NCBI GenBank assembly: GCA_010093605.1 | Contig: MU004186.1 | Location: 782,796 to 846,795 of the forward strand | Reading direction: 5' to 3' | Source: Lophium mytilinum | Taxonomy: Eukaryota > Ascomycota > Dothideomycetes > Mytilinidiales > Mytilinidiaceae | Length of the DNA: 64,000 nt | In this document: piece after piece, positions 45,281 to 64,000 of the stretch | How positions within the stretch are numbered: the stretch's first letter is position 1 | How the letters are laid out: each line of letters starts with the position of its first letter | Position numbers and translations under genes: made by a program | The notes under the pieces: model-generated | Told to the model about the DNA's origin: nothing | Database searches by the model: none | What the model saw: only the letters and a program-made list of their open reading frames with translations

Positions 45281-45683
45281 TAGACTAATATACTTGCTAG
45301 TTTAAATAATATAGTAAAGGTAGATAGAGTATAGCTAGATATATATATATATATATACCTAAGACCTAAATTATTCTATAAAATATATCATAATAGGTTA
45401 TTCTATAGTAAGCTTAATTAATACACTATATATCCCTAATAGCTAAATAACTTTAAGGCGCTTAGTATTATATACTATAGCTAATAGGGGTTCTATATAA
45501 ATGCTATACTACTATATATAAAACTGCTATATAGATTAATTCTAAAAGGAGGCTATAATAGGCTGTATAATAACCTTATATATATCTAAGTAGTTTCTAT
45601 TCCTATCTTAGGAGCTAGGCTACTTATACTCCTGCTTAAGCTATAGCTATACTAGGTAAGCGTATCCTAAGCTAAGTTAGAGC

Positions 45684-46009
45684 TGTAAGTTTTATAATAG
45701 CATAAGCACAATAACCTTACGCATAATAGGCTTAAAAGCCTTTAAATGGGACGAAACTAAAAGCATTTAAACGTAATACAATAAACGTTAGATAACAATA
45801 TAAGAATATTAGATAATATTATAAGAATTTTAGATATATTATAAGAATTTTAGATAACGTTATAAGAATGTTAGAGAATTATTTTATAATGCATTAAATG
45901 CTATATATATATAACTCTGTTGCTATTAATATAGAATAGAACTTAAGTAATACAATTCCTATCTATCTATCTATCTATCTATTCTTACATTAACTCTATA
46001 CCTTTAACA
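45684..46009 (+). mobile_element. Solo-LTR-like repeat, copy 1
   Basis: Starts TGTAAGTTTTATAATAGC and ends CCTTTAACA (TG..CA). It is bounded by an exact 5-bp duplication AGAGC at 45679-45683 and 46010-46014. It contains the family landmarks: AGGCTTAAAAGCC, a TATATATATA box, AGAATAGAACTTAAG and a (TATC)n array. At 326 bp it is longer than other copies because an internal TATAAGAATTTTAGATA-like unit is repeated. Confidence 0.75.
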
Positions 46010-47538
46010 AGAGCTAGTTAGAACCTAACTTTTAGCCCTGTTTTTAATAGTAAGTATTAGGACTATAGTATTACTACTGTGCGTTAGAAAGCCTATTTAG
46101 GGACCTATAGGACTCTTATATATTAGTCTCTAAGCGCTAATTATTAAGCTAGCTTACTCTCTACTATATAAAAGACCTTAAGCTATTCTATACTATTATA
46201 TTACCTTTAAAGCGGTAGAGCTATTAGTAGGTAATAGGTTTTATTATTATCTTAGGCTATAAAGGCTTTATTATTACTTAGAACTAGAGGGTATACTAAA
46301 CTTACTATATAAGAGAATAATAACTAAAATAGAAAGCCGCCTTGTAAATCCAGCTTAACTATGCCTGGACTATAGGTATAGTAACTAAGAGCGGTTTGCA
46401 GACGCTATCTAAATGCTATAAATAGAGGTTAATATTAGAGATGCCTAGCAGTATACACTAAAATAGGCGTCTGCCAACGGGATTTCTTTCTTTAGCACTG
46501 GCATTATCTATACATAGGCTGCCCCTATCTTAAGGCTATATTTTATATTGCGGAAAGGTTTCTAAATATCAGCCTGTAGCTAAAATAGCCCTATTATAAT
46601 GCCGTAGAGTTTATAGTAAATTTAAGAAGGATAAGTTAGTACTAGTAAAGTAAATATTTACTTGCGTTAATTTGCATACGTTCTTTATAAATGCGAAGCA
46701 CCTTAACATCTATATTATTAATGAGCTAATATAAGCAAAAAAATAGTAAGACTAGTAGATATTTTAGAGGAAGTTTAGAAGGCTTAATAGTCTATACTTA
46801 GAGACTTTTAGTAACTTTAACAGGATAGGAGTAGAGGGAGAAGAAGGTAGCGTATAGGAAATTCTATTAAGGAGGCATTTAGAAACGCGTTTACTTTATT
46901 TAGTAGCTATATAAAATCTTTTTAGATAGTAGAAAGATAAGAATTAAGAAGTTAGGGGTTATATCTTTAAATATAAAAGAGCTATAAATATTTTATTATC
47001 TTTATAAATATAAATTTATATAGATAGAAAGTAAGATAGTAGTACTATAAGTATATGCATCTAATTAAGGTAATTATAGAAGCTAGTTTAAACTTTTCTA
47101 GCTTATATTAGTAGAAGAGAGAGTTTAGGAGACTTTTAAATAGTTAGCATTTTATAGAACTATCTAGCTCTTAAGTATAAGTAGAGATATAAACTAGGTT
47201 TACTAAATAATATAGAGTTTTCAGCGCTCTCTAGCGGGTATTCTACGCTATAAACGGGCTATAACTAGTAAGAATAATACTCTAGTAGTAGTTAAAAGAG
47301 GTAATAACTTTAAGTATTTTAATATAATTTAAGTAAGCTTTTTTATTTAAGAAACTAAAGCTTTAATTAGAGCCTATAACTTTCCAGGTAGTATAATTAG
47401 GCTATAGCTTAGTAGATAGATAATAGAAAAGAAAGCTTTAACTCTTAATAAGCTAACAATACTAATCTTTATACGTAACCTAGGTTTAATATAAGTATTA
47501 GATTAAAGTTCTACTATCTATTCTTATATTAACTATAT

Positions 47539-47799
47539 TGTAAGGATTACAATAGTATAAGCGTTATATCCTTACGCATAATAGGCTTAAAAGCCTTTAA
47601 ACGGGACGAAACCGTAAGCGTTTAAACGTGATACAACAAACGTTGGATAATGTTATAAGAACGTTAGAGAAACGTTTTATAATGCATTACATGCTGTATA
47701 TATACTCTATTACTTTCAATATAGAATAGAACTTAACTAATACAATTCCTATCTATCTATCTATCTATCTATTCTTCCATCCACTCTATACCTTTGACA
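47539..47799 (+). mobile_element. Solo-LTR-like repeat, copy 2
   Basis: 261 bp, starts TGTAAGGATTACAATAG (the first 13 bases are an inverted repeat) and ends CCTTTGACA. It is flanked by TATAT on both sides (47534-47538, 47800-47804). It is less mutated than copy 1. Confidence 0.75.
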
Positions 47800-47909
47800 T
47801 ATATATCTTTAATAACTACCTATATTATATCTCTTTACTATTTATATAACTTCTATAACCTATTATTTTACTCTACTAGTTAATTATATAGGGTTCCTAT
47901 TTTTGTATA

Positions 47910-48163
47910 TACTCTTAGTAGTTTATATTAATGTAAGAGTAGATAGATAGATACTCTATTGCATTACTTCTATTCTATATTAATAGTAATAGAGTTATAT
48001 ATATATGCTATTTAATGCATTATAAAACGCTTTTCTAATACTCTGGTAATATTATTTTACATTTATTATATTACGCTTAAACGCTCGCCGTGTCCTTTTA
48101 TTTAAAGGCTTTTAAGCCTACTATGCGCAAGAATAAAACGCTTATACTATTTTAGATCTTACA
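47910..48163 (-). mobile_element. Solo-LTR-like repeat, copy 3
   Basis: Minus-strand copy whose 5' end (TGTAAG) is at 48163. The 3' end at 47910 is diverged. GTATA occurs on both flanks (47905-47909, 48164-48168), but in such AT-rich sequence that could be chance. Confidence 0.65.
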
Positions 48164-48739
48164 GTATAGAGGCGGCTGTTAGGTGCTAATAGATAATAGG
48201 TTTATATAAAAGTGCCCTAGACTAGATAAGTAAAAGTAAGTAGATAAGAGTAGACCAAACCATAAGCTAAGCTAGATTTCATCTTAATGTAGCCCCAGCA
48301 ATGCTGGGGTTATAGAACCGGTGGGGCTTTAGAACTTATAATTATACTAACATAGTACAATAGTCTAAAGGCACTCAAATAAATAAATAGAGACTACTAA
48401 GCTTTCCCTTACTAATTTTACATTAGTTTATCTATCTATAAGCCACCCTAGTAAGTTGAATAAAGTAATAGGAATCTTTAGTATATAGCATTCTAATAGT
48501 AGGTTTATAAGGTAGTAATAGTAAGATAGTAAATATTATAAGATATTATACAAATTCCCTTTTTATTAGGCTAGTAGAGTTTATTAGCTCTTAATAAGTA
48601 TTTCTTGCCTTTCTTATGTTTTTAATGCGCTATCTTCAGCGCTATTAGCATGCTTTAACTTTTACCCCCTAATACTTATTTTAACCTAGAATAAAAACTA
48701 GAGGAACTAGGTAAGTAATATATATCTATCTACTAATCT

Positions 48740-48762
48740 ATCTCTTAACCTGTATATCTATC

Positions 48763-48813
<51 letters not shown>

Positions 48814-48895
48814 CTATTTATCTATCTAAGTGTCTAAATATCTTAATATCTTGATATCTTACCATCTACCCAATTTATCTATCTATCTATGTATA
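48740..48895. repeat. (TATC)n microsatellite cluster
   Basis: Several interrupted TATC runs, continuing into TATCTTTC-type pyrimidine-rich sequence to about 49010. Confidence 0.85.
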
Positions 48896-62226: not shown

Positions 62227-62259
<33 letters not shown>

Positions 62260-62457
62260 AAAATAGGAATCATAATACTTAAGTTATTTTCTATATTAAT
62301 AGCAACAAGTTATATATATATAGCATTTAATACATTATAAAACGTTTCTCTAACGTTTATTATATCACGTTTAAACGCTTACGGTTTTATTGTATTTTAA
62401 GGCTTTTAAGCCTATTATATATAAGGATATAATAGTTATGCTATTATAAAATTTTCA
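62200..62457 (-). mobile_element. Solo-LTR-like repeat, copy 5
   Basis: 258 bp on the minus strand, with the (GATA)n array at 62227-62260. Flanks GTATT (62195-62199) and GTACT (62458-62462) differ by one C/T. Confidence 0.72.
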
Positions 62458-62787
62458 GTACTTATATCTAAATAAAAGTAGAAAGTATAGTAAAAATCAT
62501 CTATTCTACTATTAAGTTAATATAATCTGTCTGTAGACTATATATACTACAACCTATACAACTAGTAATAGTATACCTAATCTAAATTAGGATAAACTAT
62601 ACTAGGTAGTATTAGCACTATTAATATTCAATCCGTAACAGAGGTAAATATTACCTAAAAGACCTAGGTACTATAAAGTATAAGACTTAAAGTAGTAGTA
62701 CTTATAGTTAATTAATATTAATACATAGTTATTATATAGTAATATATTCTATAGAATAACAGTTTTATTATTATAAAAGATTCTTTT

Positions 62788-63009
62788 TATAAGTTCTATA
62801 ATAGTGTAAGCGTTATATCCTTTTATATAATAGGCTAAAAGGGCTTTAAGCAGAATAAAACATTAAGCTCTTAATATAATATAATAAATATTAGATAATA
62901 TTAGATAAACGTTAGAGTAGTATTTTATAACGCATTAAACAGCATATATATATAACTCTGTTACTATTAGTATAGAATATATAATTTAAGTAATATATAT
63001 CTATCTATC

Positions 63010-63079
<70 letters not shown>

Positions 63080-63111
63080 CTTATTCTTATACTAAAATTA
63101 TATCTTTAATA
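62788..63111 (+). mobile_element. Solo-LTR-like repeat, copy 6, with long TATC array
   Basis: 324 bp. The internal TATC array (about 62998-63078) is the longest in the window and accounts for the extra length. Flanks CTTTT and ATTTT agree at 4 of 5 bases only. Confidence 0.68.
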
Positions 63112-63354
63112 ATTTTAGGCTAGTAGAGCTTCTATTAGTGTCTATATAATAGTTCTATCTATCCTAGTTAATAAATTAGAAACTGTTTGCTGCTATATAG
63201 TAGTTAGATTAAACCCCTATCTTCTATAGTATTTTATGCTAACTACTCTTCTAATAAATATAATCTTAGAATAGTTAAGATGCCTCTCTTAGTATACTAG
63301 TTAATCCCCTAACCTTAAGAGCGTTAGAGATTAGCTTCTAGTAAACTTCTAACG

Positions 63355-63616
63355 TGTAAGTTTTATAATAGCATAAGCGCTATATCCTTACGCATAATAG
63401 GCTTAAAAGCCTTTAAATAGGACGAAACTGTAAGCGTTTAAATGTAATATAACGAATGTTAAATAATATTATAAGAACGTTTAAGAAACATTTTATAATG
63501 CATTAGATGCTGTATATATACAACTCCGTTGCTATTAATATATAATAGAACTCTAGCAATACAGTTCCTATCTATCTATCTATCTATCTATTCTTACATC
63601 GACCCTATATCTATCA
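63355..63616 (+). mobile_element. Solo-LTR-like repeat, copy 7 (left arm of palindrome)
   Basis: About 262 bp, starts TGTAAGTTTTATAATAGC and runs to ATCTATCA, where it meets copy 8 tail-to-tail. It is more mutated than copy 8. Confidence 0.72.
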
Positions 63617-63872
63617 AAGGTATAGAGTCGATGGGAGAATAGATAGATAGATAGATAGATAGGAATTGTATTGCTTGAGTTCTATTCTACATCGACAGCA
63701 ACGGAGTATATATACAGCATTTAATGCATTATAAAACGTTTCTCTAACGTTCTTGTAACGTTATCCAACGTTCGTTGTATCACGTTTAAACGCTCACGGT
63801 TTCGTCCCGTTTGAAGGCTTTTGAGCCTATTATGCGTAAGGATATAACGCTTATGCTATTGTAATCCTTATA
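63612..63872 (-). mobile_element. Solo-LTR-like repeat, copy 8 (right arm of palindrome), least mutated
   Basis: About 261 bp in opposite orientation to copy 7, overlapping it by a few bases. It keeps many CpG sites (ACGTTATCCAACGTTCG, CACGGTTTCGTCCCG) that are TpA or TpG in the other copies, so it is the best guide to the original sequence. The TATA-like box and (GATA)n array are intact. Confidence 0.75.
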
Positions 63873-64000
63873 GCTACTAGCCTTACTATTTTATTTTCTA
63901 TTCTTTCTATTTTATATACTTTATATAGGCTATTTTATTACTATCTATATACCTATATATCTAGAAGCATATCTTAAACTGTAGAAACCTTACCTTATTA

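Follow-up and report, generated by a model that had tools for sequence, protein, structure and literature searches.

A probable centromeric Ty1/copia family in the dothideomycete Lophium mytilinum

What are the eight related repeats of about 260 bp that lie, in both orientations, between positions 45684 and 63872 of a 64,000-nucleotide stretch of the Lophium mytilinum genome, and why are they there? This whole stretch, which we call the window, is C6:782796-846795, where C6 is contig MU004186.1 and the other contigs are numbered likewise. A sequence-only reading of the window had described eight copies and taken them for solo long terminal repeats (LTRs) bearing 5-bp target duplications. A BLAST search of the window with copy 8 returned the same eight copies, and a search of the whole assembly (43.18 Mb, 24 contigs) identified them as the LTRs of one Ty1/copia family, with an LTR of about 260 bp, an element of about 5.5 kb and a 5-bp target duplication. 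Members of this family are gathered into zones that we consider probable centromeres.

The genome search gave 111 BLAST rows, 72 of them with both ends recognizable; the 39 that we dropped include window copies 3, 6 and 7. Among the 72, the start is TG or TA in 70 and the end is CA or TA in 66. Fourteen run into the first internal bases of an element, 12 follow the last internal bases (or are copy 8), and 46 adjoin no interior. The flanking 5-mers were identical in 29 of these 46 interior-free copies, whereas cross-pairs would give 0.22 exact matches and none of 20,000 shuffles of the flanks gave more than 6, a contrast that upholds the earlier view that the matching flanks are not due to chance. 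The remaining copies showed one difference (nine copies: six C/T and three A/G, and thus transitions in nine of nine), two differences (six copies) or four (two copies). Other duplication lengths fared poorly, with identical 4-mers or 6-mers in none of the 46 and identical 7-mers in one, as did other borders: with the 3' border shifted by -2, -1 or +1 no copies matched, and with a shift of +2 two did.

Same-strand copies about 5.2-5.3 kb apart (5,208-5,299 bases from LTR to LTR in the pairs of usual length) flank copia domains, as the sequence-only reading had expected of a genome search if these were LTRs. The outer 5-mer was common to both sides in all nine pairs with readable borders, on C6, C8, C9, C10, C12, C15, C17, C18 and C19. 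The 5' border of the C9 pair was read by eye, the 3' border of the C15 pair came from a separate look-up of the partner LTR, and the C19 pair, having been recognized partly through the shared 5-mer itself, is less secure than the rest. Eight of the nine elements span 5,462-5,560 bp and the one on C19 spans 7.8 kb; stretches of N lie inside those on C6 and C15, among others. A search for partner LTRs at ten expected places and on C15 yielded the 3' LTR end on C15, with the target duplication GTAGC. No partner was found at the expected places on C1, C13 and C21, although sequence is present there, and the other seven places read N, five of them wholly and two mostly.

The interior of the C6 element holds frames with copia gag, Pol_BBD, rve and SH3_retrovirus domains (Pfam matches PF14223, PF22936, PF00665 and PF25597); some of its pol region reads N. 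In six zones (on C2, C9, C13, C15, C17 and C18), rve lies upstream of the copia reverse transcriptase domain RVT_2 on the same strand, with the curated rve cut-off passed only in C2 and C15. Because the integrase precedes the reverse transcriptase and the gag and pol are of copia type, the family belongs to Ty1/copia (Pseudoviridae). Just inside the 5' LTR, the block GGTTATRAGC was present in 13 of the 15 listed copies and a one-base variant in the other two; these rows were chosen by their first five internal bases, and the next 30 or so bases are conserved too. In Ty5 and Drosophila copia the primer-binding site is directed against the anticodon arm of the initiator tRNA-Met. We take GGTTATRAGC to resemble the complement of that arm, but three pattern searches for an initiator tRNA-Met gene gave no matches, so the primer-site assignment stays presumptive. 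At the other end, the polypurine tract AAGGGAGTG or a close variant precedes 11 of the 13 listed LTRs, in rows selected on the five bases that abut the LTR; the two without it are copy 8 and the C15 5' LTR that copy 8 matches. The 32 listed homologues of the integrase piece comprised proteins from metagenomes or large contigs together with TNT 1-94-like entries from plants, and they did not provide placement in a named fungal clade.

The decay of the family is RIP-like (repeat-induced point mutation). Comparing LTR with LTR in eight elements, we counted 153 transitions and 6 transversions, with 118 of the 153 transitions before A against a background of 39%. Stops inside the 33 RVT_2 matches of the genome were TAA or TAG only, as CpA-directed RIP predicts. 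Given such decay, the LTR identity within pairs (0.883-0.954) is no clock.

To place the family in the genome we used two LTR motifs: motif 1, of 21 bases with up to 3 mismatches (102 genome matches, 100 listed; none for the reversed control), and motif 2, of 35 bases (67 matches, all listed; none for the control). The motif 1 match at C2:1858329, with 3 mismatches, had no LTR around it and was set aside, leaving 166 matches (99 of the 100 listed and 67 of 67) that we grouped at distances below 100 kb. They fall into 20 zones, spread over 19 contigs and totalling 519 kb (1.2% of the genome), and among the motif matches listed the family LTRs are confined to these zones. Each zone holds 1-13 matches, and those with more than one match extend over 6-69 kb of mixed GC content. 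When 20 zones were placed at random, at least 19 distinct contigs were reached with a frequency of 4.5e-5 (with the lengths of C11 and C22-C24 assumed). This placement, visible only with the whole genome, was absent from the sequence-only reading.

Other transposon groups have no preference for the zones. With the zones padded by 15 kb (2.6% of the genome), 2 of 150 scored RVT_1 matches (from 173 candidates) and none of 10 DDE_1 matches fell inside. The copia reverse transcriptase RVT_2 was found inside in 19 of 33 cases, a count that arises partly by construction, as the zones are defined by family LTRs, and outside in 14. Thus, AT-rich decayed transposons are common outside the zones, while the family was found only inside. 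The reverse transcriptase DNA of the C15 element is 89-97% like the zone copies on C8, C9, C10, C12, C17 and C19, the six contigs to which this comparison was limited; three of the 14 outside copia loci, at 28-31% GC, match the copia DNA of the zones over stretches of just 44-115 bp. RVT_2 matches carry 13-24 stops each in the 14 outside and 0-20 inside, where some are partial. Two of the dispersed, heavily decayed copia loci, L084 and L085, are 92% similar across 3.7 kb, and a third, L086, resembles them only distantly. In addition, 28 of the 150 scored RVT_1 matches are on contig C21, which at 0.61 Mb makes up 1.4% of the genome and in this respect resembles a transposon-rich or accessory chromosome.

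We infer, with a probability of roughly 0.68, that the zones are centromeres or the immediate pericentromere; the LTR identity of the repeats is itself observed. The points that we count for this interpretation are the occurrence of zones once per contig at varying positions, their AT-rich islands and their action as a family-specific sink. More tentative is a fuller version, in which one Ty1/copia family would mark all centromeres of a dothideomycete, these being short AT-rich islands of RIP-decayed solo LTRs amid ordinary genes, and in which the element would help to build the centromeric chromatin that it targets. As the mechanism behind the zones we favour a model in which the integrase would recognize centromeric chromatin and direct insertion into the zones, by analogy with contact between the Ty5 integrase and Sir4. 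Recombination between LTRs would then remove the interiors and leave solo LTRs, and RIP would help to convert the copies into AT-rich islands. That interiors have been lost follows from the solo LTRs with duplications of their own.

A probable centromeric copia family would be of a kind already known from VdLTRE9, GlCEN427, Tcn1-6 and CoLT. In Verticillium dahliae, 204 of 215 copies of VdLTRE9 lie at the eight CenH3-bound centromeres, and this element is likewise one LTR family that is AT-rich, mostly fragmented and marked by signs of RIP (PMC7482064). However, it is remotely Gypsy-like, about 7.3 kb long with LTRs of about 200 bp, and it covers 48-83% of nearly gene-free centromeres of 94-187 kb (PMC7482064). 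The Lophium family is Ty1/copia, with an element of about 5.5 kb, and its zones, as putative centromeres, are smaller and have genes between islands. GlCEN427 of Ganoderma leucocontextum is a copia element with the order GAG, integrase, reverse transcriptase and RNase H, present as full-length copies and solo LTRs and found only in predicted centromeres; it differs in that its host is a basidiomycete, its repeat is 427 bp judging by the name, and its centromeres were predicted by Hi-C (PMC10817607). Over 95% of the copies of Tcn1-6 in Cryptococcus are at centromeres, with Tcn6 in the Ty1/copia group, and the copia-like CoLT is centromere-enriched in Phytophthora sojae; the former host is a basidiomycete, whose centromeres are shared by several families, and the latter an oomycete (PMC7175516, PMC7482064). 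Ty5 of Saccharomyces also belongs to the Ty1/copia group (Pseudoviridae), has an LTR of 251 bp (Ty elements measure 5.4-6.2 kb) and possesses an integrase that aims integration at silent chromatin through contact with Sir4, but its targets are subtelomeres and the silent mating loci (PMC7175516). Closer in taxonomy, the dothideomycete Zymoseptoria tritici has short regional centromeres (5.6-13.6 kb, average 10.3 kb) with expressed genes around or overlapping them, at a GC content little below that of the genome, 48.3 versus 52.3% (PMC4589918). We found no paper on the Lophium copia LTR family in one open-licence library, judged by titles and the beginnings of abstracts.

Several observations weigh against a centromeric identity. 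The genes that separate the Lophium islands are unlike the near-gene-free centromeres of Verticillium: an MRG-domain gene (window 53012-53380) and an ARMH3_C-domain gene (58777-59992) lie between the two C6 islands, and islands within a zone on C15 and on C16 are separated by gene-like GC. Contig C12 has two zones, at 157733-168877 and 1508600-1577923, 1.3 Mb apart, which may reflect a misjoin, a genuine second zone or a chromosome fusion that brought in an old centromere, and five contigs (C7, C11 and C22-C24) have none. The distance from a zone to a contig end exceeds 150 kb in most cases, but the zones on C1 (one match, about 20 kb from the end), C20 and C21 (with a telomere array about 52 kb away) lie near an end. 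TTAGGG arrays of at least 60 bases were found at 11 contig ends, and a shorter array on C8 (short arrays were listed as far as C15); no contig showed arrays at both of its ends, so the contigs are not proven to be whole chromosomes. Within the controls, besides the partly built-in RVT_2 count, the match at C5:773156, inside a zone and with 20 stops, may be of another copia group. Finally, Zymoseptoria tritici has no transposon family specific to its centromeres (PMC4589918).

An unlikely alternative account is that an ordinary copia family inserted anywhere and its survivors remain only in gene-poor, AT-rich heterochromatin, the zones then being heterochromatic blocks and not centromeres. The zones are indeed AT-rich, and insertions in genes are generally selected against, yet decayed transposons persist outside the zones (148 of 150 RVT_1, 10 of 10 DDE_1 and 14 of 33 RVT_2 matches), which weakens the idea of a passive sink, and no solo LTR of the family was found elsewhere with the two motifs at up to 3 mismatches. 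We hold it no likelier that the element targets some one-per-chromosome domain clearly apart from the centromere. Although the genes between the C6 islands and the 6-69 kb, mixed-GC extent of the multi-match zones would suit such a domain, we are aware of no other domain with a single occurrence on almost all chromosomes and a position that varies between them, and the distance of most zones from contig ends, C1, C20 and C21 excepted, also speaks against it.

Two further accounts concern the pattern and the repeats themselves. Scaffolding could have produced one zone per contig had AT-rich repeat contigs been placed once per scaffold, and the N stretches, the one probable chimeric junction in the zones and the two zones of C12 are compatible with this. 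We regard such an artefact as highly improbable, since copies 1-8 stand in unbroken window sequence with gene-bearing flanks, most copies have a target duplication of their own, and a zone holds 1-13 motif matches. Hardly any credence attaches to a miniature inverted-repeat transposable element or another non-LTR repeat: the copies do carry the palindrome AGGCTTAAAAGCCT or decayed forms of it, and most window copies have no adjoining interior, but gag, protease-region, integrase and reverse transcriptase domains lie between paired copies that share a 5-mer in nine of nine readable pairs, and full-length elements of this kind rule it out.

If the zones are centromeres, the LTR would locate them from sequence alone in a class in which Zymoseptoria tritici has no centromere-specific repeat. 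As a copia analogue of VdLTRE9, the family would also serve to study how an integrase finds its way to centromeric chromatin and whether AT islands made by RIP help to define such chromatin. The control within the genome (14 other copia reverse transcriptases and 148 of 150 RVT_1 matches outside the zones) makes targeting versus passive accumulation directly testable.

Features of the window; borders and flanks of the LTR copies were read directly from the sequence
Feature	Window position	Strand	Description
LTR copy 1	45684-46009	+	Solo; target duplication AGAGC/AGAGC; 326 bp, exceeding the usual 260 bp or so
LTR copy 2	47539-47799	+	Solo; target duplication TATAT/TATAT
LTR copy 3	47910-48163	-	Solo; target duplication GTATA/GTATA; ends TG..TA; degenerate 3' end
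LTR copy 4	61546-61804	+	Solo; flanks ACTAC/ACTAT, one transition mismatch
LTR copy 5	62200-62457	-	Solo; flanks GTATT/GTACT, one transition mismatch
LTR copy 6	62788-63111	+	Expanded TATC array; flanks CTTTT/ATTTT, no clear target duplication
LTR copy 7	63355-63611	+	5' flank TAACG; last 7 or so bases lost, interrupted by the copy 8 element (target ATATC)
LTR copy 8	63612-63872	-	3' LTR of a Ty1/copia element continuing to C6:851966; target duplication ATATC/ATATC (+ strand)
Contig-end bases	63873-64000		Final 128 bases ahead of an N stretch; C15-like
AT-rich island	45000-50000		Copies 1-3 inside; 25-39% GC in 1-kb windows
AT-rich island	60000-64000		Copies 4-8 inside; 21-35% GC in 1-kb windows; extends to about C6:852500

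Within the window, copies 1-5 are single LTRs with target duplications of their own, exact in copies 1-3 and with one transition each in copies 4 and 5, and without an interior; when the interior of the C9 element was compared with the window (blastn), it aligned only at the TATC arrays. The duplications assigned to these five copies in the sequence-only reading therefore stand, including the border of copy 3, and so does their solo status, which does not extend to copies 7 and 8. The flanks of copy 6 differ by one transversion, and we excluded it from the support for target duplications.

Copy 8 pairs with a same-strand 5' LTR at C6:851706-851966, 5,299 bases away. Because this spacing is like that of the other pairs and GATAT lies outside both LTRs, we assign copy 8, as the 3' LTR, to a full-length element of 5,560 bp including 1,820 N. 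To judge by the sequence, this element was likely inserted near the end of copy 7: of the 12 bases past the right-hand ATATC that were compared by eye with the expected tail of copy 7, 8 agree, and three of the four differences are transitions. Copy 8 and the last bases of the window (63612-64000) match C15:218457-218843 with 99.7% identity over 387 bp, the matching stretch includes GTAGC, the target duplication of the C15 element itself, and the bases directly inside copy 8 differ from the usual polypurine tract. We read the last 128 bases as a probable chimeric contig end, the simplest account, because the N stretch begins at the end of the window; alternatively, they may stem from recombination between contigs or between two zones. 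Insertion of the family into itself was considered as a rule and rejected: such nesting does occur, but a junction within a family LTR was seen at only 4 of 47 rejoined sites, so the family is not its own principal target.

The (TATC)n array, described earlier as present in every copy, is indeed a feature of the family, but a variable one: its longest run is 1-12 units, with at least 3 units in 64 of the 72 genome copies, and 14 units in copy 6, which is outside those 72. It lies downstream of a TATA-like box and can presumably be read also as repeated GATA sites (consensus WGATAR), a likeness by which it may have a transcriptional role. Across the genome, LTR starts come in a TGTAAGGATTACAATAG-like and a TGTAAGTTTTATAATAG-like type that differ just inside the end; RIP does not account for the difference, and these are perhaps two subfamilies. 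Elsewhere in the window, one intronless gene has its closest named match in the dothideomycete Mytilinidion resinicola, at 87% identity.

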